The position numbers and the translations under genes were made by a program. Of a stretch of DNA of 48,645 nt, positions 3,230-48,645 are shown piece by piece. Source of the DNA: a virus. Numbering within the stretch: the first letter of the stretch is position 1; every line of letters begins with the position of its first letter. The stretch is from positions 1 through 48,645 of IMG/VR virus record IMGVR_UViG_3300008050_000072. One strand, given 5' to 3'. The notes beneath the pieces were generated by a model that had not been told where the DNA came from, searched no databases, and saw nothing but the letters and a program-made list of their open reading frames with translations.

Positions 3230-3669
3230 TAGGCTCTCCAGTTTACGCGAACATCAGCGGTCCCAGATCCACCAATAAGACGAAGACATGCATAGATAGT
3301 ACCATCTACTGCGTTTGTTACTCCTGAATCCAGGGCGAAATCACGACCAATCTCAAATACCACAAAGCCCTTGGTAGCCCCGCCGCCAATCGACTGCTGA
3401 ACAACCTGTGTGGCTCCTGTAGTAGTACCAGGAGTTATGCCTACATCTCCATCAGAATCCCTAGTCAAGAACATAGTGCAGGATAATCCAGATGCGGACA
3501 ATCCTGTAAAGTAAATCTCTACCGTCTGAATGTTTCCTTTTTCTGGAAACCGAAAAGACTCTGGTGAGTTTGCTGTATCAGCGGTAACCGCATGAACAGA
3601 TAGCGTGTCATTGACCGCAGCATTGTTCTTATACGAGTACCCGGACATGCTCCAAGTTTTAATAGACAT
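3229..3669 (-). CDS. Small beta-rich structural protein
   Basis: A 146-residue protein with alternating hydrophobic and T/S/G residues and almost no helix-favouring stretches (VEIYFTGLSASGLSCTMFLTRDS; GFVVFEIGRDF; IYACLRLIGGSG), typical of a beta-sandwich. It is the first gene after the 2647-residue internal protein and shares a base with it (3669). A fibre, spike or adaptor role is likely from position. I do not recognise the family. Confidence 0.55.
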   Translation of the reverse strand: MSIKTWSMSGYSYKNNAAVNDTLSVHAVTADTANSPESFRFPEKGNIQTVEIYFTGLSASGLSCTMFLTRDSDGDVGITPGTTTGATQVVQQSIGGGATKGFVVFEIGRDFALDSGVTNAVDGTIYACLRLIGGSGTADVRVNWRA

Positions 3670-19913: not shown

Positions 19914-21467
19914 TTACACCTCCTTAATAGGACGACTTGTTGACCCGTAGTAGTGAGTTGAACCGAGACCATCACCAAAACCAGGGCGCTCATGCCCCGA
20001 AAAAGAGTAGTCTCGCTTCATCTTCTCTAACTCCAACTGGTATGCCTGGAAGTACACGCTCTTTCTATCAAGACTTCCATCTCTATCACCAAGTAAGTAC
20101 GAACAAGAAAGCTCAATCAAAGCATTGTAGCACTCAGGGGGGATACGAGAAACGTCAGTGTCATTGCCCAGCAAGTCTGGTCGTCGAACACAGGACAACA
20201 GTATATCGTCCTTTGATGTAGGCCGTTTATCGAAACGTATGTGCTGATGGCCAACAAACTCTTTTATCGGAAAATCTCTATCAACAGGATCATAAGACCC
20301 ATTATCAATGACCTCCACATCATGCCCCTCAACAATGCGCCACAAATAGTATTCCCCATCGGCCTGAACATCCTTATTAAGCACCCCTGTTGGGGGCTCA
20401 TCTGAGTTCTCATGCCTGGCACGAAAGATCCACTTCTCAACTCCATGATGATGGTATGACCACGGCATGGTTGCCTCGCTCTGTGAATACCCAAAGACAT
20501 AATCAACGTCCGGTGTCTTCACCCTCAAAGCTGAATCGCCCCACACCACAGATTGCTTCTCACTGGCTTCGGACGGGGCTGAGATATAAAATGGAAGCCC
20601 CTGGTTCTCGCCAACGCCGTCAGCAACACGCCATAGATACCCGCGCTCTTTAGGCCAGCGGCCCCAAACATGGCAAACCTTGTATGAGAAGGTTCCTGCC
20701 CGCCCATAGGTATAGTCAACCAATAGATCAGGGTCGTAACCCCACTTAGCGCCAAAAGTATGCCCCTGAGATGCAGCCTCTATTTCAGGCTTATAGTGCG
20801 GAGAGGGTAGCTGGAAGTAATCCCCACGCTGGTAGTAATCAGGATCTCCTGAATCCTGCCACCCAGAAGAAAACTTATGTCGAGTCATCTCGGGCCCAAG
20901 CATGGAGACCGGTATCTGCCTTCCACTTTTCTCAGGGTTCCGAACCACTTGACGAATAGACTGGACATCAGCCGGGTACGGGTACTCGTAAGTATAGATG
21001 CGAGCATCCATATCTGCCTTCGCAAACTGTGTTGAGAACGGCTTGTCAACAACAATGACATGGTAGGTTATCACCGGGTCGTTCCCTCTAGTTGTTACAT
21101 ATACGTCCTGTATCCTGCGTTGATGCCATCGGTCATCACGCCCTTGAACCTCAAACCATCGACCACGAAGAACCTTATCGGTAATGTCTGTGGCCTCAAT
21201 AGGTGAGTTAGTAGCGACAATGGCAAAGCATCTGTTGTCATCTTCTGAAAAGCCATAGGCTGTATGTAATAGGTTTACTTTTGTAAGTGTTACCTGTGGC
21301 TCCAGTATAAACCTATACTCGTCCCGAAGAAGCACCTCTGGGATCTCGCCCCATAACTTCCTAAGAGCCTGGTTCAGTATGTTGTTCAGGCGCTTTGTCC
21401 CTGCATCACCACGCTCAGGGTACCCAGTCTTGATGCGAATAGCTTTACGCAGTTGCTTTAGATTCAT
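19914..21467 (-). CDS. Putative head-tail adaptor or tail tubular protein (gp11-like position)
   Basis: 517 residues from an ATG at 21467 with GGGGA upstream; a TTG 12 bases earlier is possible. The N-terminal 60 residues (LKQLRKAIRIKTGYPERGDA; LNNILNQALRKLWGEIPEV) are a helical bundle like those of phage adaptor proteins that sit under the portal. After it come beta-rich segments and a C-terminal helix (YFQAYQLELEKMKRDYSF). It lies between capsid and nozzle genes, the place of T7 gp11, but is more than twice gp11's 196 residues, so it probably carries an extra domain. Function is inferred from position and helical N-terminus. Confidence 0.55.
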   Translation of the reverse strand: MNLKQLRKAIRIKTGYPERGDAGTKRLNNILNQALRKLWGEIPEVLLRDEYRFILEPQVTLTKVNLLHTAYGFSEDDNRCFAIVATNSPIEATDITDKVLRGRWFEVQGRDDRWHQRRIQDVYVTTRGNDPVITYHVIVVDKPFSTQFAKADMDARIYTYEYPYPADVQSIRQVVRNPEKSGRQIPVSMLGPEMTRHKFSSGWQDSGDPDYYQRGDYFQLPSPHYKPEIEAASQGHTFGAKWGYDPDLLVDYTYGRAGTFSYKVCHVWGRWPKERGYLWRVADGVGENQGLPFYISAPSEASEKQSVVWGDSALRVKTPDVDYVFGYSQSEATMPWSYHHHGVEKWIFRARHENSDEPPTGVLNKDVQADGEYYLWRIVEGHDVEVIDNGSYDPVDRDFPIKEFVGHQHIRFDKRPTSKDDILLSCVRRPDLLGNDTDVSRIPPECYNALIELSCSYLLGDRDGSLDRKSVYFQAYQLELEKMKRDYSFSGHERPGFGDGLGSTHYYGSTSRPIKEV

Positions 21468-22035: not shown

Positions 22036-23115
22036 TCAAACAATTGCGACGGCTGTTTCAGAAGTACAACCATTAGCCATGAGGTTAGTCATAGCAAACT
22101 GCGCTTCAAGGATGATGTAACCAACATCAGCATCAACGTTTGAGGTCTCAAGGTGATCCGCAAACTTAGTGACCCGGAAGTCATTGTTAGCATTAACCCA
22201 ATACTCAATCGTGTTGGGGTTCAACAAGTAGACAGCATCGGTCGCGCCAACGGCAAGGTCAGTCATCCAACGGTTGGCATAATACTGCACACCGTTAACC
22301 ATATGAATGGTCGGGTGAGACTTGCCACTCGTCAAATCAGCAGGTGTGTACATAAGCTGGGGGCCGGTACCACCAACAGTGGTGCGAACCTCAGTGCCGA
22401 GCATGACATGGTCGGCAATAGACAAGACCCCAAGCGAGATCCCTTCTTCGTCTTCCGCGTAGGTATCAGCAGTAATCTTGATCTCTTCTGCACGTTGCAG
22501 AAAGTCCGTTCCAATGGTTGCCCCAGATAGATACTGGTTATGCCAGTTATCAACAAAATCCGTCGTATCGTTTACACGGGTCTCGTTGAGGTACTGAATT
22601 CCAGCTAGTGCTTGCTGTTCGGGAGTATTAAACACCAACGCACCACGCTGAAAACCAGACGAGGTAAGCCCAGACACGGTACCGTTAAGAGTTCCAAGTC
22701 CAGTCAAAGAGCTAACGTTACCCATGTACAACTGACGAACCACATCATTCTTCAAGGACTGCATCGCAGCCTGACTTTCATCTTGAACGAATCGCTTGAT
22801 TTCCTCTTTCGTAGACATACGATCACGATCAATGTGAGGCAGGATGATCGGCTTAATGTACTTGGCCCAATCACCAGTCATCGCGCTCAGGGTCTCACGC
22901 TTAGCAAGCGGGACACTAAGGTTAGTTGCGTTAATCTCAGTCACATCAGAGTGACCGGACTTCACGCGGACCACTCGTACCTGGGTTCCACCAGAACGCT
23001 TCACTTTCATGCGCGACTGGAGAGCCTTCAGAAGAGGATCACGGTTATAAAATGAGACCACAGATTTCTTAACGACATCCGGGACTGTAAGAGTTGCATA
23101 TTCAAGAAGAGGCAT
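22036..23115 (-). CDS. Major capsid protein candidate
   Basis: 359 residues, a typical size for an HK97-fold capsid subunit without an N-terminal scaffold domain. It lies immediately after the scaffold-region genes and before a decoration protein and terminator. It has a basic N-terminal region (KSVVSFYNRDPLLKALQSRM), a helical central segment (TKEEIKRFVQDESQAAMQSL, like the spine helix) and mixed beta segments. GGAG lies 7 nt before the ATG. The assignment comes mainly from order and composition; mass spectrometry of virions or a structure search would settle it. Confidence 0.75.
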   Translation of the reverse strand: MPLLEYATLTVPDVVKKSVVSFYNRDPLLKALQSRMKVKRSGGTQVRVVRVKSGHSDVTEINATNLSVPLAKRETLSAMTGDWAKYIKPIILPHIDRDRMSTKEEIKRFVQDESQAAMQSLKNDVVRQLYMGNVSSLTGLGTLNGTVSGLTSSGFQRGALVFNTPEQQALAGIQYLNETRVNDTTDFVDNWHNQYLSGATIGTDFLQRAEEIKITADTYAEDEEGISLGVLSIADHVMLGTEVRTTVGGTGPQLMYTPADLTSGKSHPTIHMVNGVQYYANRWMTDLAVGATDAVYLLNPNTIEYWVNANNDFRVTKFADHLETSNVDADVGYIILEAQFAMTNLMANGCTSETAVAIV

Positions 23116-25344: not shown

Positions 25345-27096
25345 TTAAAACGGTGAACCATCATCTGGTGCTGCGCCCATTGCGGCCATTTCCTCAACCA
25401 TGCCCATATCGCCACCAGGCTCAGACATATATTCCTCAACATCCTTAGATCGTAGAATAGATGGCCTGAAACCAAACGCATCTATAATCTCACGAACAAG
25501 CTCTTTCTGATCAATCGCATCACTGGTCGGACCACCAGAAGACATGTACTGAAGCAACTCAAGAAGGTGCTGTCTACGCACAACCTTGTCTTCCATCAGG
25601 GGACTAAACGGAAGCAACCTGAACGAAGGCATTGCATCCACTACTTCCCGCTCAAACGTTGCCGCATCAACATCATCTTGAACGAGCTTAGATACTCGGT
25701 CTATGTTGATTGAAGAGACCTCTTTATTTAGCAATGCCCACTTAAACGACTCCAATGCTTTTCGGAACATGGTTGTTACCAATCGCGTCACCTTGCGTGA
25801 TCGGATTGCCAACCGCCCCTCAATAGCTGATCGAATCATGTTGGCTTCGGCTGCTGTCCGAATGTTGTTTACTTGACCCTGCTGGTAGTCCGCCATTCCC
25901 GGCAACCACCGGATAGAGTCCACCGCTTGACCAAGATGCTGATTGAAGTCGAACGTAGTCCTCATCTCAGGACTAACCCAGATATTTGAGTTTATATCCC
26001 CATCAGGTGGTCCATGGATAAGCGTAGGCTCCCAAGTCTTGGCGTTCTTCCACCGCTCAAACTCTTCTTCTGAACGAAAGAGCTTTGAATCCACCAACAT
26101 ACGCCTCGGTAGTCGTGCGACCACTTCACGGCGAGCACTTACAAGTTCGTTAATGTCTCTTTGAATCGAAGAGATAAGCGTAGTGTCTGGGATTCCGCGA
26201 ATCCGTCCAACACCAGGATGGAATACCAGAACCTCGTATGGTCTCCCATACGGTATATCTGACTCCATGAGTAGTTGGTTTGTATCTGGATGAATGTGGT
26301 AGAGCTTGTTCTTCTTAAAGTCCCAGAACTCAACAAGAGAAACGTACTCTTTAAGCCCAGCCTCTCTAAGTTTAATCTCAGCATCATCTTTCATCTGCTG
26401 ATGAACAAGCGAACGGGGATAGGTGTCTCCCTTGATCGTCTTTGTAGGCTGTGCATAAATGCCAGATTCTATCCGACTCCGAACGTCATCTGTATGAACA
26501 ACAAACCGCTCAAAGGCCCACATAGCGTCAGAGGCGCGCTTGGCGTTTGGATCAAAGTGTACTTCCCAAGGAAGTTTGGTTCTCCATATGGGTCGGCCAA
26601 GGTCAGAAGACCACATGACCTTCACAACACTCATATCAAATAAAAGCGCATGAAGGATCACCTCACGCAATACCTCATCAAGCTGGTCTTCCTCTGCGAA
26701 GAAGTTGAGCGCAGCGGCTACCCGTCGTCCAGCAAACGTTGTGTCTTGGTGCCGGTCTGGAATCTTGTATGATCGGGCACGCTGGTCAATGGCCTCAACT
26801 TGCGGGAGGTCCATAGCTAACGAAGACGCAATCGTATCAATGATTGGGAAGACTTCGTTTTGAACAGCTTTATAGTTTCGACTGCCCCCGCCAGTTATTT
26901 GTGACGAGTAGCCATCTCCACCCCAAAAGTCTCCCCGATAGTACGCAAGGTTACGGATCAACTCGTCCGCACGGTACTGCTTAAAGTTTTCCTCTGTTTG
27001 ATGAACCAGAGTTGTCATCTTTTTAATAGCTTTATTTTCGTCAGGCGCAGAGCGGCTGTCTACTGTTCTCTCGGCGTCAGATGCGTAGTTGCTCAT
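25345..27096 (-). CDS. Portal protein
   Basis: 583 residues from ATG 27096, which overlaps the TerL stop in an ATGA. Size and the place immediately after TerL are those of a podovirus portal. The N-terminal segment (RADELIRNLAYYRGDFWGGD; VFPIIDTIASSLAMDLPQVE) matches the start of many portal proteins, where a helix is followed by an aromatic YYxG motif. Later segments (LPGMADYQQGQVNNIRTAAE; ARLPRRMLVDSKLF) also fit. The dodecameric ring at one vertex would drive packaging with TerL and dock the adaptor-like protein. The C-terminus is acidic and methionine-rich. Confidence 0.8.
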   Translation of the reverse strand: MSNYASDAERTVDSRSAPDENKAIKKMTTLVHQTEENFKQYRADELIRNLAYYRGDFWGGDGYSSQITGGGSRNYKAVQNEVFPIIDTIASSLAMDLPQVEAIDQRARSYKIPDRHQDTTFAGRRVAAALNFFAEEDQLDEVLREVILHALLFDMSVVKVMWSSDLGRPIWRTKLPWEVHFDPNAKRASDAMWAFERFVVHTDDVRSRIESGIYAQPTKTIKGDTYPRSLVHQQMKDDAEIKLREAGLKEYVSLVEFWDFKKNKLYHIHPDTNQLLMESDIPYGRPYEVLVFHPGVGRIRGIPDTTLISSIQRDINELVSARREVVARLPRRMLVDSKLFRSEEEFERWKNAKTWEPTLIHGPPDGDINSNIWVSPEMRTTFDFNQHLGQAVDSIRWLPGMADYQQGQVNNIRTAAEANMIRSAIEGRLAIRSRKVTRLVTTMFRKALESFKWALLNKEVSSINIDRVSKLVQDDVDAATFEREVVDAMPSFRLLPFSPLMEDKVVRRQHLLELLQYMSSGGPTSDAIDQKELVREIIDAFGFRPSILRSKDVEEYMSEPGGDMGMVEEMAAMGAAPDDGSPF

Positions 27097-28712
27097 TTGT
27101 GTTGACCCCAAGGGCTGTTCCAGTTTGCACTATCTTCCCGGTCTATCTGCTGCATCACTCTTTTCCAATTCATATTTGTTTTGTCTCTGTTCGACATCCT
27201 TCGCCTATCCCATTTTGAACCAACCTCCATCCTCCACGCCCAGGCTGCTCCCGCCATTGATGCTGCAAGATCATAGTGTCCACCAGATGAGTCTCGTGAG
27301 AGCTTGTCCCATTGTCCTCTATAGTTCAATAATTGTCTAATGCACCGAGTTGAGTGAAGCATCAATGATGAATCATCTATAAGCTCCTGTAAAAAGCTAA
27401 TCGCCTGAGCCTTGGTCTTCATTGTTGAGTACCACCCAGGAACCCTGGAGTAACCTGACTTACCATGGAGGCTTGCCTTCCTATGGTAAATGTTTCTTAC
27501 ACCCATGGCCAGCAAGTGAGAAAGCAACGCCTCACCGACCCCATTCGACTCAATATAGATTCGAGCATCGTTGTACTGCTTAGATAGCGCAGCGATCCTT
27601 CTTGCCATCTTAAAGGCTTCGGAGTGACCAAGAAACTCAGCTACCTGCTCACATTCCTCAATGTCTAAAATCTGAACCCCAAACATATCTCGTTGAGACC
27701 ATGAGCCAGCAGGGTCGCAAAAGATCAAGTACCTGCTTTTCTCTTTTGGCTTCTTAAACTCTACATATTCCGTGGTTTCCACGCAGATACCGGTCCCCTT
27801 GTCGATACGATCCATCATCGCCATAAGGCTTGTGGAGTTGAATACAGACTCACCAGCAAGAACCCAGCAGTCAATCTCGTTAGCCGGATACTCTGCACGG
27901 AACTTTTCCAGGTTGTTCCTACACTTTTGCAGCCCCTCTGTTTGCATCCAGAAGGCTTGCGACTCTGTTAGGTGGTGTTCATCAGCATACCCTTGAATAA
28001 CTGAATCAGGTCGCCAGCCAACAGGTGGCCGCTTGCTATACTCAGTCACCATCGTCCATGGAATAAAGACCTTCATCCATTTGCTATGTGGTTTCTCAGA
28101 AGCAAGGCATAGGTCATGCAGTTGGTCTCCATGATAGCTTGGAGTAGACTCGGCAATAACGAAGCCACCCGTACTTGGTACAGCGTTTAGTGCTGATGTC
28201 CAAGCGTCCGGCCCTGCGGTATCAGACCACTTCGATATCTCTGTTGCCAAGAGAACCTGAACCGTATCTCCACGGAGTGGTTCTTCATCTTTTACAGATG
28301 CGATAACCATTCGACTATCCAAGACCGGAAACTCTAAGGTTCGCTTCAACCCAACTGACTTCTTTGGCTTGATCGCTTCTGGTAGGTGGCGGTGGAAACG
28401 AACCGCCATCTCCGACAAAGACCGCGCGGTATCCTTCTTGTGTGCGATCAAGCCTACTCGACAACCTGTTCTAAACATTGCGTGCTGCGTAGCTACACAA
28501 GTAAAAAAGGTACTGCTCCCTTCCTGGCGTGGCTTTACGTGTACCAACCACTTATTTTCTTTATAGCAGCGACGTACTGCTGCTGCGAGAATCCTTTGAT
28601 GCTCCCAGAGCTTAAAGGGTACAACCGCCCCACTCTTTGAGCGTATCTTATTCAGGTGACAATACTTCTCTGGGTCCCAAAACTCTGGGTCACTCGGGAG
28701 TAGATAGCTCAT
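27093..28712 (-). CDS. terL: Terminase large subunit
   Basis: 539 residues. The ATPase has a Walker A at residues 59-68 (VKPRQEGSST, the K-x-RQ-x-G-x-S form of terminases), a Walker B strand with catalytic glutamate E158 (VQVLLATEIS) and coupling motif AEST at 187-190. The C-terminal RNase H-like nuclease has acidic residues D333 (LIFCDPAGS), E388 (IYIESNGVG) and D481 (HYDLAASMAG). It would cut and translocate concatemeric DNA into the procapsid through the portal. It overlaps the upstream small gene and the portal gene by ATGA, so the packaging genes form one unit. Confidence 0.93.
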   Translation of the reverse strand: MSYLLPSDPEFWDPEKYCHLNKIRSKSGAVVPFKLWEHQRILAAAVRRCYKENKWLVHVKPRQEGSSTFFTCVATQHAMFRTGCRVGLIAHKKDTARSLSEMAVRFHRHLPEAIKPKKSVGLKRTLEFPVLDSRMVIASVKDEEPLRGDTVQVLLATEISKWSDTAGPDAWTSALNAVPSTGGFVIAESTPSYHGDQLHDLCLASEKPHSKWMKVFIPWTMVTEYSKRPPVGWRPDSVIQGYADEHHLTESQAFWMQTEGLQKCRNNLEKFRAEYPANEIDCWVLAGESVFNSTSLMAMMDRIDKGTGICVETTEYVEFKKPKEKSRYLIFCDPAGSWSQRDMFGVQILDIEECEQVAEFLGHSEAFKMARRIAALSKQYNDARIYIESNGVGEALLSHLLAMGVRNIYHRKASLHGKSGYSRVPGWYSTMKTKAQAISFLQELIDDSSLMLHSTRCIRQLLNYRGQWDKLSRDSSGGHYDLAASMAGAAWAWRMEVGSKWDRRRMSNRDKTNMNWKRVMQQIDREDSANWNSPWGQHK

Positions 28713-32753: not shown

Positions 32754-33178
32754 GAAAGCATATCAGCAAACGCGTTCCCTGTCTCAGCAGCAGACTCAAG
32801 AACAGCGGTAACCCTCTCTTGCTCTGAACGCGCTGAGAGGTACACATCACCTATGCTCTCAAGAAGAACAGCCGCGACCTCCATATCAAACACGTTCCGA
32901 ACAGCCAACCACTGACCACCATCACGGCAATACTCAAAACCCTTGTGAGCAGTACGCCAACGAAAGGTCAAAGCATCCACAACAACGGATGAGTCGCAAT
33001 ACAAACCATGACGAGAAAACAAAGCCTCAAAGTACCCAACTAAACGAAGTACCTCCTTAGCTGCCTCACCATACGCCTGAGAACAAACCTCGTGCTCCAA
33101 TACCTTGGAAGCACCAAGCTCATCAAGCTGAACACGATCAACCATCTCTGCAAGACGAACAGACGGAATACTCTTCAT
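32741..33178 (-). CDS. Protein of unknown function, first gene of a four-gene unit
   Basis: 145 residues from ATG 33178 with AGGGG about 6 nt upstream. The sequence is mixed and probably helical (AEMVDRVQLDELGASKVLEH; EVLRLVGYFEALFSRHGLYC; RNVFDMEVAAVLLESIGDVY), with three cysteines but no CxxC pair. It follows the repeat-rich noncoding region 33179-34144. I do not recognise it. Confidence 0.6.
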   Translation of the reverse strand: MKSIPSVRLAEMVDRVQLDELGASKVLEHEVCSQAYGEAAKEVLRLVGYFEALFSRHGLYCDSSVVVDALTFRWRTAHKGFEYCRDGGQWLAVRNVFDMEVAAVLLESIGDVYLSARSEQERVTAVLESAAETGNAFADMLSEKE

Positions 33179-33277
33179 CACCAACCCCTGTACTCTAGTG
33201 TCAAGTACCTAACTTCTAGTACCCTACTCTAGTTTTTTCCCTAAAAAAACTCTACCCAAATGGTTCTTATTTACTAA

Positions 33278-33296
33278 GTACTTCTCTAGAGAGTAC
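33278..33296. promoter_or_regulatory. Interrupted palindrome in a CTAG cluster
   Basis: GTACTTCTCTAGAGAGTAC is a perfect 18-nt palindrome apart from one extra T. It lies about 100 bases upstream of the 33178 start. Three further CTAG sites with similar flanks (CTCTAGT, TTCTAGT) follow at 33195-33232, towards that gene. It looks like an operator. Confidence 0.45.
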
Positions 33297-33497
33297 AGGA
33301 ACTCTGGACATAACGAAAAAAAATGAAAAAAGCAAACCCAAATAGTCCAAAAACGCTGGGCTGGTCCACTAAATAAAAGTTGTCAAATCTTGAACCACAC
33401 CACCATACCGAACACCCAGTAACAAACAAAGGGAAAAAAGAAGCAGTATTAGGTATTTTTTGAAGAGGGGGGTTGTTCTACAGCAATACACACGAAC

Positions 33498-33515
33498 GGG
33501 GGGGGATGCCCCCCC
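33498..33515. repeat. G8-ATG-C7 hairpin
   Basis: Eight G (33498-33505), ATG, then seven C (33509-33515) form an all-GC stem with a minimal loop. Further G-runs lie on both sides (GGGGGG at 33467-33472, GGGAGGGGG at 33517-33525), so the plus strand could also form a G-quadruplex. No T tract follows on the plus strand. Confidence 0.6.
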
Positions 33516-33525
33516 TGGGAGGGGG

Positions 33526-33564
33526 TAGTCACCTGACTACAATCGTCCATAGTCGCTTGACTAC
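33526..33564. promoter_or_regulatory. Pair of TAGTC-N4-GACTA dyads
   Basis: TAGTCACCTGACTAC (33526-33540) and TAGTCGCTTGACTAC (33550-33564) are two copies of the same 5-bp inverted repeat with 4-nt loops, spaced 24 bp start to start, just over two helical turns. Same-face dyads of this kind suggest cooperative binding by a dimeric regulator. Confidence 0.5.
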
Positions 33565-33721
33565 ACTCGTATATATACCCACACATGTGCACGCGGGTAC
33601 ACATAAGGAATACCCATGCAGCGATACTGCCCAAATTGGTACCTTGTTTCAGCTCTAAACTGTGCAATTCCGACACATGCCCACATGCTTCGGAATTCTA
33701 TTGTTTTGATCTTAATAGAAA

Positions 33722-33778
33722 TTCTAGCGCGGTTTTCTCGGTTTCCACGCTGTTTCAACGTGGTTTTCCACGCTAGAA
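33722..33778. repeat. Inverted repeat with inner hairpin and short direct repeats
   Basis: TTCTAGCGCGG (33722-33732) pairs with CCACGCTAGAA (33768-33778) at 10 of 11 positions. Within it, CGTGGTTTTCCACG (33759-33772) is a perfect hairpin, and TTTCCACGC occurs twice (33742 and 33766). This nested layout resembles protein-binding repeats at an origin. Confidence 0.5.
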
Positions 33779-33820
33779 CCACCATTTGCACCCAGAGCAG
33801 AGCCTCTAGCCATAGCAAAC

Positions 33821-33862
33821 CGATCGAATGTGTTTGTCATTCGATCGAATTGTTTGTCATTC
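33821..33862. repeat. Two tandem 21-bp repeats
   Basis: CGATCGAATGTGTTTGTCAT (from 33821) and CGATCGAATTGTTTGTCAT (from 33842) are adjacent copies differing only by a base gained or lost. Each contains the palindrome TTCGATCGAA or its half. Iteron-like. Confidence 0.65.
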
Positions 33863-34089
33863 TCAACGCCATTTGACATACACCGACGCTCGCCGGGCTG
33901 AGGCCGGTCAATAAGAGGCCGTGAAAGGTACCAGAAGGGACGCTCCCGTCCTTCCTACCCATCTATCCATCCCACACACCCCAAACGCCCGTAGACGCCC
34001 CCTGTAGTGGCTCCACCGTGTCCCCGTGGTCTGGTCGGTCCTGTGACGCTGTGCGGTTCCATGCATCCAACGAACCCAAACGTAGAAAA

Positions 34090-34117
34090 CCCCCATGTAC
34101 TTTGCAGTACATGGGGG
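34090..34117. terminator. Strong, possibly bidirectional terminator
   Basis: A perfect 12-bp stem, CCCCCATGTACT with AGTACATGGGGG, closes on a 4-nt loop. On the minus strand it is followed by TTTTCTACGTTT, and on the plus strand by CGTTCGTTTTATC. It ends the minus-strand transcript of the 34145-35184 genes and would shield the noncoding region. Confidence 0.85.
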
Positions 34118-34144
34118 CGTTCGTTTTATCTGTATGTGTAGCGG

Positions 34145-34222
34145 TTAGCGTCGCCTACTGATCAGCATTGCGACGCAACACCAGAGAATGCCGAGTGTGC
34201 ACAGCGCGTTGACTGTGATCAC
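34145..34222 (-). CDS. 25-residue single-pass membrane micro-protein
   Basis: A GTG at 34222 overlaps the TGA of the upstream gene (GTGA at 34219-34222) and the frame runs 25 codons to TAA, just before the terminator. The product is almost wholly hydrophobic (VNALCTLGILWCCVAMLIS) and ends in three arginines, the profile of a single-pass membrane peptide with a cytoplasmic tail. Its place between a coupled start and a terminator argues that it is real. A role in membrane modification, exclusion or lysis timing is only a guess. Confidence 0.5.
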   Translation of the reverse strand: MITVNALCTLGILWCCVAMLISRRR

Positions 34223-35184
34223 AGGGCAGCCGGTACCGCAGGCACTGACACGAGCATAAGACCCGATTCCCGGCAATAGGTGCCAGTGGAGCCGGGCAGC
34301 GTTTCCAGCACATCGACCAGTAGAGCGGGTCGAACGTGGATTGTCCGCGTATCGGTAGATTGCTTGGCTTGCTTGGCTTCGATGGTCTGCACTTGCGCTT
34401 GGATGATGCCCGCGTTTATCGGTTGCGGCTTGCGAGCGGGTATCACTGAACCCAGCACACTTTCGACCGATGGATACCCAGCGCCCATGACACCCCGTGC
34501 GATGCTTTGTTCTGCTTTCCGGGCAACAGCCCACAGAGTCTTTGCGTTCGCAGTTTCAATGCCCCAATTGCGTTTCAACCGACCCCAGTACAAGAAGTGG
34601 CCACCTTTACGTGTCATTTCATCAGGCGTTGGCCACCGCTGATCGTGCTGTGTCTGTGTCTGTGTTGGCGCTTGTGTCTGTGTCGGTGACTGGTGTCCGA
34701 TCCACGCATCGAATTGCGCGTCCAATGTTGGTGCCTGTGGTGCTTGCGGTGCCTGTGGTGCCATCGGTGCTTGCGGTGCTTGCGGTGCCATCGGTGCCAG
34801 GCCACCAGCAAAAAGCGTAGCCCGAATATCCGTGACCGCCTTCGGTGTCGCCTTCGGTGTCGGTGTCGGTTTGGCTTGGACCGGTACGTATTGGCGACGT
34901 GAACTTGAACCCTTGCCCCTTGAACCCATGGATCGCTCTAGTCCACATGCTTGCAATGCTGCGGCATTGTCCAGGTTTATCGCTACCTTTGCATCATATG
35001 CGTTCTTTGGTCCCGTCCATCCCGTCAGATCCGCATATTGAATCCATCCAGCCCGAACGCCAGCCACAAGCTGTCCCGTTGACAATGCCTTATTCAGTGC
35101 GTCAACCGATGCCTGGCTTTGCAGCGTAATGATTGGCTGTCCTGTGACAATGCATGTGATCGTGAGTTGGTTTTTGGTTTGCAT
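34219..35184 (-). CDS. Low-complexity protein with A-P-Q repeats, unknown function
   Basis: 321 residues from ATG 35184, with AAGGA 8 nt upstream; an earlier start at 35205 is less likely. There are three parts: an N-terminal domain of about 90 residues (ITCIVTGQPIITLQSQASVD; AGWIQYADLTGWTGPKNAYD), a disordered middle with APMAPQAPQAP repeats, PTPTPKATPK and TQTQ runs, and a C-terminal mixed region ending in VSVPAVPAAL. The TGxP opening hints at a short zinc- or nucleic-acid-binding fold, but only one cysteine is close. It lies between two repeat-rich islands. Base composition is richer in G+C than its neighbours. Confidence 0.6.
   Translation of the reverse strand: MQTKNQLTITCIVTGQPIITLQSQASVDALNKALSTGQLVAGVRAGWIQYADLTGWTGPKNAYDAKVAINLDNAAALQACGLERSMGSRGKGSSSRRQYVPVQAKPTPTPKATPKAVTDIRATLFAGGLAPMAPQAPQAPMAPQAPQAPQAPTLDAQFDAWIGHQSPTQTQAPTQTQTQHDQRWPTPDEMTRKGGHFLYWGRLKRNWGIETANAKTLWAVARKAEQSIARGVMGAGYPSVESVLGSVIPARKPQPINAGIIQAQVQTIEAKQAKQSTDTRTIHVRPALLVDVLETLPGSTGTYCRESGLMLVSVPAVPAAL
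34729..34800 (-). repeat. Nine-base imperfect repeats coding for A-P-Q
   Basis: Units of the form GGTGCNTGN (plus strand) repeat about eight times with small changes, encoding APM and APQ triplets. Replication slippage is the likely source, so repeat number may vary between related phages. Confidence 0.7.
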
Positions 35185-35249
35185 GATGTTGTCCTTGTGC
35201 TGCACTTTGGCAGCGGTTTTGCCCTGAAAACACTCCAGGGCTGAAGACT

Positions 35250-35278
35250 CTTTAACCTGATTCGCTTCTACCGGTCAA
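35250..35278 (-). promoter_or_regulatory. Candidate promoter for the 34219-35184 gene
   Basis: On the minus strand TTGACC (35273-35278) and TTAAAG (35250-35255) are separated by exactly 17 nt and lie 65 bases before the start. The -35 box is good and the -10 box weak. TTGACCGG is shared with other candidate control sites in this phage. Confidence 0.45.
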
Positions 35279-35334
35279 CCTATGCAGAGACGTCCAACGT
35301 TTAGCCGTCAATAACCCCCAAACAATTCGGACCG

Positions 35335-35475
35335 TGTCACATATACATACACACATACATACATACATACATGCATACATACATACATGCACATGTGCGC
35401 CCGCGCCTGTGTATGCGCATACACATACATACAACACACTACGTGCAATACGGGCGATACGTGCAATACATACAT
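35335..35475. repeat. Intergenic island A: CATA repeats, palindromes, paired ACGTGCAATA boxes
   Basis: This gap between two minus-strand genes is built of alternating purine-pyrimidine sequence. It has runs of CATACATA, the 10-nt palindrome GCACATGTGC (35390-35399), the perfect 18-nt palindrome TGTGTATGCGCATACACA (35408-35425), and TACGTGCAATAC at 35440-35451 and 35458-35469. Similar parts recur in the islands at 38600-38750 and 33568-33605. The sequence could form Z-DNA or cruciforms and probably holds operator sites. Confidence 0.7.
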
Positions 35476-35477
35476 AC

Positions 35478-35513
35478 AAAAAGGGGCCAAAGCTTTTAAG
35501 CCTTGACCCCTTT
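35478..35513 (-). terminator. Terminator after the 35537-35845 gene
   Basis: AAAGGGG (35480-35486) pairs with CCCCTTT (35507-35513), with further pairing CAA/TTG and GCTT/AAGC inside. On the minus strand the stem runs into TTTTTGT. It lies 24 bases after the stop codon. Confidence 0.8.
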
Positions 35514-35536
35514 AATGCTAACTATAAGCAAGCGTT

Positions 35537-35845
35537 CTATTTGGCGTACATTTCTACTTCATCACGCTCTTGTACAGTAGGCTTCTCATAGAAGCTATGA
35601 AACAAACGTGACCATTCATCTGTTAGGTCTATCGTTGCCAAGCAACCATACGACTGAGCCATGAGTACCCATAGAATACGCCTTGCACTATCACCTCGTA
35701 TGCTATCGGTACCAGTAGATATAACTAAGTCACTTAGTGCATGTGCAAACGGTATCGGGTTGCATGGTAGCGACGGGTCAAACATAGCCGCCTGTATTTG
35801 AATGAGCCTATTGGCCAACGTGTCTGGATTTACTTTGAGTGTCAT
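35537..35845 (-). CDS. Small protein of unknown function
   Basis: 102 residues with GAGGTAACA before the ATG. The sequence is mixed and probably helical (PDTLANRLIQIQAAMFDPSL; FAHALSDLVISTGTDSIRGD; ARRILWVLMAQSYGCLATID; EWSRLFHSFYEKPTVQERDE). It is flanked by a terminator downstream, so it ends a transcript beginning further right. I do not recognise it. Confidence 0.55.
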   Translation of the reverse strand: MTLKVNPDTLANRLIQIQAAMFDPSLPCNPIPFAHALSDLVISTGTDSIRGDSARRILWVLMAQSYGCLATIDLTDEWSRLFHSFYEKPTVQERDEVEMYAK

Positions 35846-35893
35846 TGTTACCTCTTTGGGTATGTTGTTTATTGTTTGGTTTAATGTGCTTCA

Positions 35894-36262
35894 CTATCGC
35901 TCAATCATAACAAGCTCATACTTGTTGTCCGGGAACATAAGCTTCTCTTGTTCCATCGCATGCAGCCCTTCTGCATATGTATACTTCTCGACATCCATAC
36001 CCTTAGAGGGTATCCAAGCTACTATCCTGTATAGCTTTGGAGTTATCTCACGTATCGCTGTTTGTATGTTCATCCATCGTTGTTCCCACAACAACAGGGA
36101 GCCTTTAACCGCATCAATCATACGCTGGTCAGTATACGTGTCCAACATCTGGTTTAGACCTGCTACTTGCCTTTGGCATTGCTCCTTACGCACTTCCAGA
36201 TCCGCTATGTCTTCTTGTACAAGAGTATCCACTGACCATGGGTACACATCGTTCATACCCAT
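35894..36262 (-). CDS. Small helical protein of unknown function
   Basis: 122 residues from ATG 36262; an ATG at 36256 that overlaps the upstream stop in ATGA is equally plausible. The N-terminal 70 residues are strongly helical and could be a coiled coil (DIADLEVRKEQCQRQVAGLN; AVKGSLLLWEQRWMNIQTAI), followed by a mixed region (KLYRIVAWIPSKGMDVEKYT). Context is the early small-gene block. Function unknown. Confidence 0.55.
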   Translation of the reverse strand: MGMNDVYPWSVDTLVQEDIADLEVRKEQCQRQVAGLNQMLDTYTDQRMIDAVKGSLLLWEQRWMNIQTAIREITPKLYRIVAWIPSKGMDVEKYTYAEGLHAMEQEKLMFPDNKYELVMIER

Positions 36263-36543
36263 TGTGATGCATCCTCATTGGGGTCCATGTCCTCATACCC
36301 TTCGTTCCATTCAATGCGGTCATCGTCATAGTCAAACGTCCTTGCCCCGTTACTAACTACACTCATTGATAGACATACGTTTGACCTCTCAACAACCTCA
36401 TCGTCGTTGTTATCGCTTGCATGCAAGCCAGCCTTACCCTTGTTGGTATCGCCGTTTATATACATATCGACTGGCCTCATTTCATTCCGTTCAAGTGTAT
36501 CAATAAGCTCATCTGTATCGTTAACAAATAGTATATCTGACAT
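36253..36543 (-). CDS. Very acidic small protein, possible DNA mimic
   Basis: 96 residues with AAGGA before the ATG. The composition is strongly acidic (FVNDTDELIDTLERNE; ASDNNDDEVVERS; FDYDDDRIEWNEGYEDMDPN), with few basic residues. Small acidic early phage proteins often bind host DNA-binding proteins or mimic DNA, for instance to block restriction or recombination enzymes. That role is a suggestion only. It overlaps the next gene by a few bases. Confidence 0.5.
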   Translation of the reverse strand: MSDILFVNDTDELIDTLERNEMRPVDMYINGDTNKGKAGLHASDNNDDEVVERSNVCLSMSVVSNGARTFDYDDDRIEWNEGYEDMDPNEDASQWV

Positions 36544-36592
36544 TATGTTTCCTTACCTGCGCTTTGGCAGGGCTGTTGTTTGTTGGTGGTCT

Positions 36593-36661
36593 TTATTGAT
36601 CCATATACATAGACATGCAAAGACCAAGCATGCACATGATTACAAAAGCTATGACGTGCAT
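36593..36661 (-). CDS. 22-residue hydrophobic micro-ORF
   Basis: An ATG at 36661 overlaps the stop of the 604-residue gene in ATGA, and the frame runs 22 codons to TAA. The product is hydrophobic and methionine- and cysteine-rich (VIAFVIMCMLGLCMSMYM), consistent with one membrane segment. The DNA also contains TGCACGT and GCATGTCTATGTATATGG, which resemble the intergenic islands, so this stretch might be regulatory DNA and not a gene. Confidence 0.35.
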   Translation of the reverse strand: MHVIAFVIMCMLGLCMSMYMDQ

Positions 36662-38475
36662 CACAGACGCAGTGAGTTTGAGTTAGCCGCCTTTGCCAGA
36701 ATAGGTACAAGCTCACCGGCTTGTCGTTCAAGGCCATCACGTACACAGTCATCGACCATAGACTCATGGGCCATACGAGTAATGGCGTTGACAATATCGT
36801 GCATAGACTCACCACCGCCTTGATTGTTGTACGATTCAAGCAAGTATTCCACCGCCGCATCACGACCAATACCCTTGCCGATACGCCCTGTATCTACAAG
36901 TGTTTTAAGCATGACAATAGGAGCACGTTCCACAATGCCATCGTCATTAACGAATGACTCAATACGCTCACCATTCACAAGCAACCCGTCAACAGGCATG
37001 TTGTTTAGTATGCCCCATTGAACAGCAAAGCGTTGCATAGCCTCACGACCCTTCGCCATGCCAGTGTACAAGTGCTTCAACTTGCTTGCGACATCACCCT
37101 TGTGTACAACCTTAATCATTTCAGCTACTTTCGATGATATGATAATCATGTTTAAGCACTCATTCCAAAACGCAATAGGCCCGCCCTTGATTGAGCCTCC
37201 GCCTACATCGTTGCTCTTGAAGCGATAGCCTACTTCAAACAAATCACCTGCACTAAAGTCCTGAAGGTCAGATGGTGCATGCATTGTAATGTTAAACGCA
37301 AAGTCTGTTGTCTGTGCGTTGTACTCAATCTCACCCTTGAACATACCCTCTGGATAGTTTCTATCCAATGCCCCACCTATGAAGGCGGCGACATCATCGC
37401 TGTCATATGTCGTATACGTTGGTGACACCGCACTGAATACACCACGTCCATCGGGGCCAACCCTGGTACGGAGCTTTACTTCCTGGTCCTTGTACCCATG
37501 ACGTTTCATATGCTCATTAAAGACATACGCTCTAACGTCAGGGTCAAGCCGCAAGAACATTGACAATGCACGCGGATACAATTTCGTTGTATAGTCAGAC
37601 CGCTCCGGGTATGGGACTGGAGTCCTGTATTGCTGCGAAGCAATGCGTGCATACGCCTTATCATACGCATCCTCATCGAAGTATTTAGCTACGCTAAGCA
37701 ACTTGCTTAGTCCAACACTCTCAACATTTAGGTTGCCAACGTTAGGTATATGTAATGAACCGTCGTCCTCCATTCGTATGTCGGACATGTTTACTTTCCA
37801 GTCCTCACGGTCCTCATTATGTATCGTACTCATAAAGGTTTCAATAGCAGCATTGGGTGTAGGCTTGTTATCCCAAACCTCTCGTGCTGTATTTAAGTTT
37901 GCGTACCCCGAGTCTAACACCGCTTTACCACGTATATACCCAGCCTTGGTTATCTTTATGTTCTCTGGTGAGCGTGCAATACCAAGCTCAGTAACCAACA
38001 AGTCATGTTCCGCTTGTCGCTTTACAGCAACCTCGCTTACTTCACACGGACTAACTGTACGCTTATCCTCATGTATCGTACCAACAAGCTTACGCTTAAC
38101 AGGCTCATCAACAACCTCGCTTTCGGCCCATGTATTCCCGTTACTTATCGAGGGTGTATCGCTACCTGTCATTAGGGCGTATGTCTTGTTGGCTTCCGGC
38201 TCATCAACAGGCTCACTAATACCCATGGCTGTATTGTAAACCTGCTCAGCAGCCGACCCTGGCATTGGGTATATGGCATGCTCCGTATCCATACCCGTCC
38301 AACGCTGATGCTTGAAGTCCTCATAGAAAAGCTCTTGAGCCTTATACTTTGCCTCATCATACGTGGGTGCATTGCACTTTGTTTCTATCTCGTATGGGTC
38401 ACGGTATATAAACGTGAATCCATTGTCTTGTGTGTCACCTTGTGTGCCACCTAATGTGTTTATCGAAAGGGTCAT
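36661..38475 (-). CDS. Large early protein, DUF932-like segment
   Basis: 604 residues, with AGGTG before the ATG. The N-terminal 60 residues (GFTFIYRDPYEIETKCNAPT; YDEAKYKAQELFYEDFKHQR) resemble a small separate domain. Around residues 416-440, FKSNDVGGGSIKGGPIAFWN followed by ECLN is like the NSDVGxGSl-x-P-x4-R-x3-C-xN pattern of DUF932 proteins found on phages and plasmids, which are of unknown role. The remainder is mixed alpha/beta (DLFEVGYRF; EMIKVVHKGDVASKLKHLYT). It is the largest gene of the early minus block and has its own control region upstream. Confidence 0.55.
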   Translation of the reverse strand: MTLSINTLGGTQGDTQDNGFTFIYRDPYEIETKCNAPTYDEAKYKAQELFYEDFKHQRWTGMDTEHAIYPMPGSAAEQVYNTAMGISEPVDEPEANKTYALMTGSDTPSISNGNTWAESEVVDEPVKRKLVGTIHEDKRTVSPCEVSEVAVKRQAEHDLLVTELGIARSPENIKITKAGYIRGKAVLDSGYANLNTAREVWDNKPTPNAAIETFMSTIHNEDREDWKVNMSDIRMEDDGSLHIPNVGNLNVESVGLSKLLSVAKYFDEDAYDKAYARIASQQYRTPVPYPERSDYTTKLYPRALSMFLRLDPDVRAYVFNEHMKRHGYKDQEVKLRTRVGPDGRGVFSAVSPTYTTYDSDDVAAFIGGALDRNYPEGMFKGEIEYNAQTTDFAFNITMHAPSDLQDFSAGDLFEVGYRFKSNDVGGGSIKGGPIAFWNECLNMIIISSKVAEMIKVVHKGDVASKLKHLYTGMAKGREAMQRFAVQWGILNNMPVDGLLVNGERIESFVNDDGIVERAPIVMLKTLVDTGRIGKGIGRDAAVEYLLESYNNQGGGESMHDIVNAITRMAHESMVDDCVRDGLERQAGELVPILAKAANSNSLRL

Positions 38476-38599
38476 TGTCTCACCTGTTTGTTGTGGGTTG
38501 AATCCGGTCCTTGCCGGTGACGAAAACCTAACACGGCGACGGAGCCAGCGTCAAGAGTCACCGTTGAACCTGGGTTTTCGGGATGCCTCGTGCGCTTGC

Positions 38600-38750
38600 A
38601 TAACGTGGCGAAGTGTGTTGCATACGCAAGCATGTGTATGCCCGCATGCACCTGTGAGTATACCACACAGGCGTGTGTATATGTACGCATGTACGGACAG
38701 GTTATGTCCGCACAATACGTGCATTAGCCCTGCACAATACGTGCATTAGC
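38600..38750. repeat. Intergenic island B: alternating purine-pyrimidine and a 19-bp direct repeat
   Basis: GCACAATACGTGCATTAGC occurs perfectly twice (38710-38728 and 38732-38750), ending one base before the stop of the neighbouring gene. Each copy contains the dyad GCAC-N5-GTGC. Between the repeats and the 604-residue gene lie alternating stretches (GTGTGTATATGTACGCATGTAC, GCATACGCAAGCATGTGTATGC). The core ACGTGCA and the layout match island A, in the same orientation relative to transcription. Confidence 0.75.
38651..38671 (-). promoter_or_regulatory. Extended -10 promoter inside an inverted repeat (operator)
   Basis: On the minus strand TGGTATACT (38657-38665) is an extended -10 box. It is flanked by CCTGTG (38651-38656) and CACAGG (38666-38671), a perfect 6-bp inverted repeat. 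A repressor bound to the dyad would cover the -10 box. It points to the 604-residue gene starting at 38475, with a leader of about 170 nt. No good -35 box is present, as expected for extended -10 promoters. Confidence 0.55.
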
Positions 38751-41339: not shown

Positions 41340-41356
41340 GTTGGCTCCTGTGTTTT

Positions 41357-41403
41357 GGTTAAGCCGGTTCTCTGCCGACCAGAACAACTTAACCGGTGGT
41401 CAA
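41357..41403 (-). promoter_or_regulatory. Control region with TTGAC-CCGGTTAA element and GGTTAA dyad
   Basis: On the minus strand TTGACCACCGGTTAAGTTG lies at 41385-41403 and matches the element at 42654-42672 in every position except the two-base spacer and one inner base. The related GGTTAAGCCGGTT is at 41357-41369 on the plus strand, giving inverted GGTTAA half-sites. It lies between the stop of the 313-residue gene and the start at 41339, so it probably controls that gene and those after it. The XRE regulator encoded nearby is the obvious candidate binder. Confidence 0.55.
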
Positions 41404-41449
41404 CCTCTCGTCAACCACAGCCTCCCGGTGGCCCTTTTCGGGGACCAGA

Positions 41450-42391
41450 TCAGGTGGCACCCTCCTCGCCCATGTCACCCGGATCGCGGACAAGGTTGCG
41501 TATCGTAAGCCCGGCTGCGGTTTCAAACTGCGTACCGCTATCCCATGCTCGCTCAATCATCTGTATGTACTGACCACGGAACAGGCGATCAATGTTGCCA
41601 ACCATATCCCAGTCACAGATGTACCCACGATTCCACCACTGTGGACACAGGCGAGCAAGTAGCGAGGCCGACTGCTGGTATATACTTATTGCTGCGTCAC
41701 GCGATACGAATGGTATACGCATCTCTATCAAGGCAGCTAACTCTATTAGTTGAGCAGCTTTGTTTGCGTCTAAGGCCAGCACTAAGGCAACCAATGTTGC
41801 ATGCCTGATCGTCGCATGTCGTGGGAATAGCAAGTCACGCTCATCCCACCCGGAACATATACCCTTCGCATAAATACGGGCATTACGTTCGTGACCCAAG
41901 CCCGCAGCATCAAGCATACGCTCTTGAACAAGTGCCTTAACTATCTTGCGATAGCGTATGTGTGAGTCCTCAATGATTGCTATTTCATTCTTTGGGGACA
42001 GCCTATCAATCACAGCACGAGCACAAGCGTCCGCCCATGCCCTCATACCAGACTTGTCTAGCCCATCAGTGGTAGGCACAGGGTCTACAAGCAAAGCCCC
42101 CTTAAACCGCCACAGAGAGCCGTCACGACCTATAAAGATATGCCTGTACCCAACACTCAAGCCAACCACATGAGTAGTTATGCCTACCTGTATACGACCA
42201 CCATTGAGTATGGGGTACCTGCTCTTACGAGTGTTTGTCCTCGCGGTCTTGGCTGTTGGTGTGTACCAACCAAGCTGAGCACCCAGGTTGTCTAAGTCTA
42301 TACGTCCTGAGCGATACGACTTCACCGGCTCCACCTCAAGAGCCTTTCTTTTTATACGACTACGTGGGCCTTTACTACGCGCCTTAGTCAT
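41450..42391 (-). CDS. Unknown 313-residue protein co-transcribed with the XRE regulator
   Basis: The N-terminal 25 residues are very basic (KARSKGPRSRIKRKALEV), suited to binding nucleic acid. Then come a beta-rich stretch (GGRIQVGITTHVVGLSVGYR; HIFIGRDGSLWRFKGALLVD) and a long helical region (MRAWADACARAVIDRLSPKN; ALVLALDANKAAQLIELAAL). No catalytic motif is recognised. It overlaps the regulator gene by 8 nt, so the two are coupled. Being the second gene behind a repressor-like protein, it may act on host or phage DNA. Confidence 0.6.
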   Translation of the reverse strand: MTKARSKGPRSRIKRKALEVEPVKSYRSGRIDLDNLGAQLGWYTPTAKTARTNTRKSRYPILNGGRIQVGITTHVVGLSVGYRHIFIGRDGSLWRFKGALLVDPVPTTDGLDKSGMRAWADACARAVIDRLSPKNEIAIIEDSHIRYRKIVKALVQERMLDAAGLGHERNARIYAKGICSGWDERDLLFPRHATIRHATLVALVLALDANKAAQLIELAALIEMRIPFVSRDAAISIYQQSASLLARLCPQWWNRGYICDWDMVGNIDRLFRGQYIQMIERAWDSGTQFETAAGLTIRNLVRDPGDMGEEGAT

Positions 42392-42641
42392 GCTGCTCGG
42401 CTACGTTCAACACAAGCACAAACTCATCATTAGTTAGGTTCAGAACCTTTGAGATTTTAGATATAGTCATGCGACTAGGCACACGCCTACCACCCTCATA
42501 CAAGCACACGCTTGAGTTCGTAACCCCGATCCTATCCGCAAGCTCCTGTTGAGTTAACCCCTCCCTGGCGCGAAGAGTTTTCAGCATCACCCCGAAACCC
42601 CTGGTTCTTCCTTGCTTCTCACCGATTCTCTGGCTGGTCAT
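42384..42641 (-). CDS. XRE-family HTH transcriptional regulator
   Basis: 85 residues with an excellent ribosome binding site (AAGGAGGT, 6-7 nt spacer). The HTH spans about residues 20-70: LKTLRAREGLTQQELADRIG then VTNSSVCLYEGGRRVPS, the typical XRE signature with the recognition helix around SSVCLYE. There is no C-terminal dimerisation or protease domain, so it is a short Cro- or C-type regulator. It is divergent from the helicase operon across an 86-base gap holding a TTGAC-CCGGTTAA element, so it likely controls both directions. Confidence 0.85.
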   Translation of the reverse strand: MTSQRIGEKQGRTRGFGVMLKTLRAREGLTQQELADRIGVTNSSVCLYEGGRRVPSRMTISKISKVLNLTNDEFVLVLNVAEQHD

Positions 42642-42653
42642 CTTGACACCTCC

Positions 42654-42676
42654 TTGACAGCCGGTTAACTTGGTTT
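42654..42676 (+). promoter_or_regulatory. TTGAC-CCGGTTAA control element before the helicase operon
   Basis: TTGACAGCCGGTTAACTTG at 42654-42672 is nearly the same as the minus-strand element at 41385-41403. TTGACA is a perfect -35 box pointing at the helicase gene, but no clear -10 box lies 17 nt on, so an activator or operator role is possible. A second, related CGGCGGTCAAG follows at 42681-42691. Confidence 0.55.
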
Positions 42677-42727
42677 CTCCCGGCGGTCAAGAGCCGTTCG
42701 GTCCAAACTGCCCTGGAGGCGAACAAC

Positions 42728-47203: not shown

Positions 47204-47574
47204 TGTCTAAGAAGCTGAAGAGGCCGAACAGTGACCAGTATTTGACTATAGCTAGGGCGTTGCTTGTTAATAAAACAGATGCTCTCGGTGGTATACCGTC
47301 CGCTGTAGAGGTGCTTCGTAAAGAGTTCGGCATACAGGTAGCCACTAGTACATTCAAAAACTGGTGTCATGGGTTCCGCACACCAAACGGGGAGATTCAT
47401 TACTCTCCATGTGGCCGTCACTTGAACCCAAGTACACGAGGGATAGTCAATAAGTGGCTTGGTATTGTGGACGATAGCTGGTGGTGGACTTCACTAAAGA
47501 TCAAGCACCTAAAGAAACCAGATGTTGTTGACCCGTTTGATGTAATGGGGTTGACTCGACCGGAGGAAGTATGA
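47200..47574 (+). CDS. HTH-like DNA-binding protein candidate
   Basis: 124 residues with a start in ATGATG, overlapping the upstream stop. PSAVEVLRKEFGIQVATSTF then KNWCHGFRTPNG resembles a helix-turn-helix of the kind where a site-specific helix (TSTFKNW) follows a turn, as in transposase- or terminase-like HTH domains. The C-terminal half is W- and K-containing (IVNKWLGIVDDSWWWTSLKI). It may bind DNA in replication or packaging. Function unknown. Confidence 0.5.
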   Translation: MMSKKLKRPNSDQYLTIARALLVNKTDALGGIPSAVEVLRKEFGIQVATSTFKNWCHGFRTPNGEIHYSPCGRHLNPSTRGIVNKWLGIVDDSWWWTSLKIKHLKKPDVVDPFDVMGLTRPEEV

Positions 47575-48533: not shown

Positions 48534-48645
48534 TGGCCAGGGACGTGGACGGATACACGGTGCGCTGCAAGGTAGACCTGCGCGAAGCCAAATGGCTCGG
48601 CGGCTTGCCCATCAGCTACACCGTGCACGTAAAGCAGGGCGGCAA
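48533..48645 (+). CDS. Partial gene at the right window edge
   Basis: An ATG at 48533 overlaps the upstream TGA (TGATG), with GGGAGG upstream, and 37 codons are open to the window end. The visible N-terminus is MARDVDGYTVRCKVDLREAK then WLGGLPISYTVHVKQGG. It is too short to assign. It is richer in G+C than the preceding genes. Confidence 0.5.
   Translation, partial: MARDVDGYTVRCKVDLREAKWLGGLPISYTVHVKQGG

Follow-up and report, generated by a model that had tools for sequence, protein, structure and literature searches.

Alternating Purine-Pyrimidine Islands Ahead of Promoter-Like Modules in an Uncultured Phage Family: Candidate Supercoil-Responsive Elements

Introduction

Why would a phage genome carry long runs of alternating purine and pyrimidine (RY) bases in the gaps ahead of its operons? 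The question is raised by an uncultured phage contig from IMG/VR (IMGVR_UViG_3300008050_000072, positions 1 to 48,645), the whole 48,645-nucleotide stretch of which is referred to here as the window. The original prediction described four intergenic sites of this window as one family of RY islands with paired ACGTGCA boxes, which might form either a phage promoter or operator class or sites of Z-DNA or cruciform formation. Three of these sites are RY islands beyond chance, and they are also the three sites with the highest predicted Z-propensity in the window. In related contigs RY tracts recur at fixed places, namely a conserved non-coding region and gaps just upstream of a promoter-like module, and the ACGTGCA boxes are absent from the matching gaps. 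The islands are read here, tentatively, as DNA elements that respond to supercoiling. A regulatory role for Z-DNA in bacteria and phages has long been debated as an open question.

RY islands in the window

The islands and their immediate surroundings are the following.

35333..35478, minus strand: main RY island, Z-prone, ahead of gene X (RY score 97)
38613..38695, minus strand: RY island, Z-prone, ahead of the 604-aa gene (RY score 34)
33568..33605, minus strand: short RY (Z-prone) island within a conserved non-coding region (NCR) (RY score 21)
36600..36661, minus strand: claimed short form, not above chance
35480..35513, minus strand: intrinsic terminator of the operon ending ahead of the main island (GC-rich stem, then a T run)
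34219..35205, minus strand: gene X, with a P/Q-rich low-complexity middle part
36661..38475, minus strand: 604-aa gene (phrog_1362)

Uninterrupted RY runs reach 63 bp (35338-35400), 26 bp (35408-35433), and 25 bp (38671-38695), compared with a mean of 16 and a maximum of 24 for the longest run in 200 first-order Markov shuffles of the window. When interruptions are allowed through a gap-tolerant score (+1/-3), only three segments reach 16 or more window-wide, namely the three islands listed above; 0.7 such segments are expected by chance, and the top of 40 shuffles is 19. The claimed short form at 36600-36661 has a best RY score of 10, similar to ordinary gaps, and a single ACGTGCA, so that it drops out of the proposed family of four, while the short form at 33568-33605 keeps its RY run and belongs to the separate NCR. 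As first described, each of the sites is located upstream of a minus-strand gene, and the islands directly follow stop codons. Of the palindromes that had been noted, one is clear, an 18-bp palindrome within the main island (35408-35425); palindromes of at least 12 bp show no excess across the whole window (9 observed, 11 expected).

Recurrence across relatives

Relatives in IMG/VR have terminase identities of 73-80% and dnaB identities of 61-100% to the window, and eight related contigs (G009, G001, G006, G003, G005, G002, G007, and G008) were compared with it over all or nearly all of their sequence; these nine genomes represent only about six lineages. An RY tract occupies the gap before the 604-aa gene (the 604 gap) in the window, G009, G003, and G007. 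The same four genomes carry a promoter-like module in this gap, in variant form in the window, and the other five have neither. In those five (G001, G006, G005, G002, and, via a partial homolog, G008) a large hairpin stands in the 604 gap instead of the RY tract. The hairpins of the island-less gaps (L003, L004, L007, L008, and L010) have a stem of 17-18 bp and the loop GAACGWAGTGA, and their stem letters vary between relatives yet pair, as judged by eye.

The second recurrent place is the NCR.

33185..34218, minus strand: NCR flanked by genes X and W, with its core at 33450-33590
33498..33515, no strand: G8/C7 run in the NCR core, hairpin-forming, with a C8 box when read on the minus strand

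A profile built from four relatives matches window positions 33590-33450 (nhmmer E 5.5e-9). The RY tracts of the NCR lie at 12892-12954 in G001, 20464-20518 in G006, and 13647-13688 in G003, with a weaker tract in G005 (score 15). Across genomes, the top RY segments fall in the NCR (window, G001, G006, and G003) or in the gaps before the 604-aa gene (window, G009, G003, and G007) or gene X. Among 91 gaps of at least 110 bp, RY scores of 13 or more are found in NCRs and module gaps only; gene calling determines which stretches count as gaps, and the NCR island of G001, which sits in a weak open reading frame, is therefore missed by the gap count and found by the segment scan.

The letters of the islands behave differently from their places. 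The 604-gap island of the window shows kinship to those of G009, G003, and G007 only at the level of chance (P 0.48, 0.80, and 0.41, respectively, against alternation-keeping shuffles). The promoter-like region next to it can be aligned with its G009 counterpart for about 115 bp, and 18 bases in a row ahead of TTGAC are identical. No ACGTGCA box occurs in the 604 gap of any of these three relatives, which keep the flanking genes, so the expectation that the repeats would be conserved there does not hold, whereas the alternation is kept. At the one gap that can be compared in four genomes, the alternation is thus retained between relatives, and the island letters and the repeats are not. That a flip-prone character is kept while the letters are not suggests that the twist of the DNA is itself under control at these sites.

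Predicted Z-propensity and the TTGAC modules

Z-propensity was calculated from published B-Z dinucleotide energies in a single-site model (Table 1 of PMC3024258). The top three Z sites of the window are its three islands. The NCR is the top Z site in G001, G006, G003, and G005, and for G001, G006, G003, and G002 the second-best site is found ahead of a module. In all five NCR-bearing genomes the top site beats 30 of 30 shuffles, which it does not in G009 and G002, the contigs without an NCR; in G007 the best Z site is in a coding stretch, and the pattern is thus not absolute. The modelled critical superhelix density of the islands in the window, G001, G006, G003, G005, and G007 is about -0.036 to -0.048, the best of their own genome in five cases. 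On the strength of the relatives and this thermodynamic ranking, the Z-DNA-forming sites suggested in the original prediction gain support as a modelled property.

The modules next to which the islands lie are defined by the element TTGAC-N16-GTTAA.

35252..35278, minus strand: promoter-like module TTGACCGGTAGAAGCGAATCAGGTTAA ahead of gene X, with a spacer of 17, located 54 bp downstream of the main island
38528..38554, minus strand: variant module TTGAC-N17-GTTAG before the 604-aa gene, aligning with TTGAC-N16-GTTAA of G009 in the same gap
42643..42690, no strand: face-to-face modules TTGAC-N16-GTTAAC-N16-GTCAA between the helix-turn-helix (HTH) gene and dnaB
41389..41414, minus strand: module TTGACGAGAGGTTGACCACCGGTTAA after the 313-aa gene, no island
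42384..42641, minus strand: Cro/CI-type HTH regulator (HTH_31 E 1.7e-12), candidate binder of the TTGAC modules

The element occurs at 23 sites in the nine genomes, against an expectation of about 0.8 in shuffled sequence. Most sites precede a codirectional gene by 30-125 bp, and often a second TTGAC lies 11 bp past the first. Sigma-70 promoters have TTGACN at -35 and TATAAT at -10, with a spacing of 16-18 bp; in the module, TTGAC stands at a fixed N16 from GTTAA, and this second half does not match TATAAT. Since a face-to-face pair lies between dnaB and the HTH gene, the module might serve as a promoter, as an operator for the Cro/CI-type HTH protein, or as both. This symmetric arrangement is also present in G009 and G006. 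At 41345-41414 the TTGAC module is followed by GTTAAGTTGTT and the GTCGGCAGAGAACCGGC hairpin, and a near-identical cassette precedes a different gene in G009 at 47258.

The association between islands and these promoter-like modules is well supported. Among the 200-bp stretches upstream of 24 modules, seven rank in the top 2% of genome windows for Z-propensity, and none of the downstream stretches do (combined P 5.5e-7, which is overstated because the loci are related). Likewise, 5/6 long module gaps rank in the top 1.4%, compared with a median rank of 47% for 80 control gaps (P 0.003), the best-ranked of which are NCRs. Since the modules were defined after the islands had been seen, these P values are approximate.

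A supercoil-responsive reading

The explanation favored here, which we consider plausible though short of probable, is that the islands are DNA elements which respond to supercoiling, lie ahead of promoters at the boundaries of operons, and are under selection for a physical property. Alternating RY tracts would flip from the B- to the Z-form at moderate negative supercoiling, and some might extrude as cruciforms. The islands lie where one transcription unit ends and a putative TTGAC-N16-GTTAA promoter follows, or in the main NCR. Polymerases starting at the downstream promoter would leave negative supercoils behind, which the island could absorb. As a torsional buffer, the island may cap promoter torsion and uncouple the neighboring unit; as a switch, it may compete with promoter melting, so that firing would depend on the supercoiling state. 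Formation of Z-DNA in the cell, promoter function of the TTGAC modules, and an effect of the flip on transcription are all presumed in this scheme. Bolder, and rather doubtful, is the proposal of a dedicated class of topological regulatory elements at operon boundaries, ahead of a single type of promoter, kept by Z-propensity and not by sequence, whose B-Z flip would insulate or time neighboring transcription units. Such a class would run counter to the bacterial norm of Z-DNA avoidance upstream of genes.

Several observations weigh against selection for supercoil response. Some modules have no island (the dnaB pair and the module at 41414), and the five relatives that lack a 604-gap module carry a large hairpin there. 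Part of the window's longest run is an (ATAC)n microsatellite, a kind of repeat that slippage can generate, and TA steps adopt the Z-form poorly. Neither Z-Z junctions nor competition with melting enters the Z model. Marginal kinship between islands is seen for the pairs G003/G007, G001n/G006n, G001n/G003n, and WINn/G006n (P 0.03-0.05), and some islands may therefore be ancestral. Finally, the loci of the about six lineages are homologous, not independent.

Among engineered systems, a distant Z-forming tract is said to take superhelical energy from a bacterial chromosomal promoter in competition with it and to alter its output; the islands described here would by analogy be a native and recurrent counterpart. 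In mammals, Z-prone DNA is found upstream of transcription starts by SIBZ analysis (PMC3024258). These eukaryotic regions resemble the islands in being Z-prone DNA upstream of starts that transcription-driven negative supercoiling could flip, and differ in that the present location is linked to a module in a phage family (PMC3024258). RNA polymerase leaves negative supercoils in its wake, and within bacterial DNA the Z-form has been observed at inserted sites (PMC3024258). Escherichia coli shows the pattern opposite to that of these phages, and published surveys report avoidance of Z-DNA in prokaryotes. A search of open-access papers turned up no phage family described as having Z-prone elements in fixed positions. 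If the proposed reading is true, this compact genome family offers a small natural test system for Z-DNA regulation, and it shows that non-coding elements of phages can be conserved in a way invisible to sequence alignment.

Phage N4 is a known case of supercoil-driven non-B DNA at phage promoters, as its early promoters are extruded as hairpins by gyrase-driven supercoiling and used by the virion RNA polymerase (PMC4496689). However, the N4 hairpins are short and conserved, have a loop of 3 bases, and serve a polymerase that is injected. No conserved hairpin of the N4 type was seen when the gaps were folded in windows, in a scan not aimed at hairpins of 5-7 bp. Hairpin promoters like those of N4 had been entertained on account of the PHROG label "virion RNA polymerase" (phrog_2206) on the 2647-aa virion protein (3669-11612, minus strand, structural block), and were dropped since the match belongs to another domain. 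It covers residues 1034-1285 only, which form a HELIHA-type domain (LHELIHA-like motif) common to an internal virion protein (PDB 9sfn), and a Pfam scan of the 2647-aa protein returned no polymerase domain.

Possible mutational drift

The main rival to the supercoil-responsive reading is neutral drift, in which simple and cryptically simple RY repeats arise by slippage and tandem duplication and survive only where they are harmless to genes, which in so gene-dense a phage leaves just a few long gaps. We regard this as unlikely on balance, though a serious contender. The islands are intergenic, their letters are not kept between relatives, and the main island of the window has a clear slippage component, as Tandem Repeats Finder identifies 35343-35388 as an (ATAC)11.5 microsatellite. 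The same program identifies both ACGTGCA pairs as tandem arrays, of period 9 and period 11. However, about 80 other gaps of at least 110 bp have no island, and the islands of G001 and G006 are not tandem repeats. Drift also does not predict the preference for one side of the modules, upstream and not downstream.

ACGTGCA boxes and other operator candidates

A second rival holds that the sites are sequence-specific operators, in which TGCAC-N5-GTGCA, TACGTGCAA, and TAGTC-N4-GACTA bind a phage or host regulator. The repeats concerned are the following.

35440-35469: period-9 TACGTGCAA array, part of the main island
38710..38750, minus strand: two 19-bp copies with ACGTGCA (period-11 array), found in the window only and immediately past the 122-aa gene's stop codon
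33526..33573, minus strand: two TAGTC-N4-GACTA dyads, 24 bp apart, adjoining the NCR island

The layout originally described for 35335-35475 and 38600-38750 is borne out in its RY runs and exact repeats, two of 12 bp (35440-35469) and two of 19 bp (38710-38750), which never or almost never occur in shuffled gaps; what had been taken for paired boxes are the tandem arrays noted above. Paired repeats with a spacing of 18-24 bp lie next to every island of the window, TACGTGCA is common to both arrays beyond chance (P about 0.002-0.009), and the genome encodes a Cro/CI-type HTH protein. Nevertheless, operators of this kind are improbable. The boxes are missing from the 604 gap of G009, G003, and G007, the HTH gene adjoins TTGAC/GTTAAC elements and not ACGTGCA, and the NCR island carries no ACGTGCA and a different repeat, the TAGTC-N4-GACTA dyads. 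ACGTGCA is also no commoner in the window than chance allows, with 9 copies against 6.0 expected and at least 9 in 11 of 100 shuffles. The arrays are best described as window-specific tandem duplications, apparently dispensable for the element. With the boxes confined to the window and TTGAC-N16-GTTAA as the nearby promoter-like element instead, the proposed ACGTGCA promoter or operator class is not supported. A search of IMG/VR with the exact 14-mer TGCACGTATTGTGC returned 103 scattered stretches with a single match each and no tandem copy, and these matches were set aside as chance.

The NCR and a possible role in replication or recombination

The islands may alternatively mark sites of replication or recombination, with the NCR as an origin and Z-prone or palindromic DNA at breakpoints of module exchange or inversion. 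The NCR is conserved and contains, besides its RY tract, a C8 hairpin, the AAAAAATA tract (A-tract), and a GTACT cluster. In addition, gene X is inverted in the window when compared with four relatives and has an island along one of its edges, and the 604-aa gene is present twice in G001. This explanation nevertheless has little chance of being correct, given that cumulative GC skew makes no turn at the NCR, that no initiator gene was recognized, and that the 604-gap islands lie in otherwise collinear neighborhoods.

Other features of the NCR were also recorded. The GTACT/AGTACT repeats cluster at 33001-33360, at the gene-W end; nowhere else in the genome is GTACT as dense, which holds for the window, G001, G006, and G005, and G003 has 5 copies. 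From its letters the cluster looks like an operator or iteron cluster. TACTATA is present in the NCR core of the relatives only and not of the window, and in the relatives the core is followed by TTGCNN-N17-TACNNT and GGTGGTCGGG ahead of gene W. The NCR of the window has two strong hairpins, at 33816-33852 and 34085-34122 (CGATCGAATG and CCCCCATGTACT stems), for which the relatives showed no counterpart; the second resembles a bidirectional terminator. A pattern scan for more NCRs returned only contigs of lineages already in the comparison set.

Possible elements acting in RNA

It is very improbable that the islands act as RNA hairpins by which the upstream operon's transcript is terminated or processed. 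Such a role would be in keeping with their position right after stop codons, with the strong local folding of the window islands in the transcript sense (z -3.8 and -4.5), and with the large hairpin in the 604 gap of island-less relatives. However, a canonical terminator already precedes the main island (35513-35480) and explains the strong fold there, windowed folding showed no common RNA fold among islands and gaps, and the G003 gap has no excess folding (z about -1). No intrinsic terminator was found inside the RY tracts, and an Rfam search of the window gave no match.

Genome context and relatives

The structural genes of the phage lie on the minus strand and include the large terminase (27093-28712), the portal (25345-27111), and the major head protein (22036-23115). 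The replication genes DnaB, Erf, exonuclease, SSB, and RuvC lie on the plus strand from 42728 onward. A nucleotide search of the phage collection gave no match, and tblastn gave only remote matches to DnaB and terminase, such that no host, named family, or close named phage could be assigned. A second profile scan for further relatives with the 604-aa gene found none that were new.

The middle of gene X is a P/A/Q-rich repeat, and its AlphaFold model is unusable (mean pLDDT 43). As a query on its own in IMG/VR, gene X returned no match, and its homologs were recognized via synteny. Gene X and gene W are divergent in four relatives and co-directional in the window, and the opposite orientation of gene X suggests an inversion, which may have carried along the large island beside it.

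Contig L116 belongs to the same species as the window (dnaB 100% identical) and extends beyond its right end (48536-48645). As this extension has no counterpart at the left end, the window is an incomplete genome. The two copies of the 604-aa gene in G001 lie near both ends of its 59-kb contig (L003 8001-9800; L010 6703-8490).

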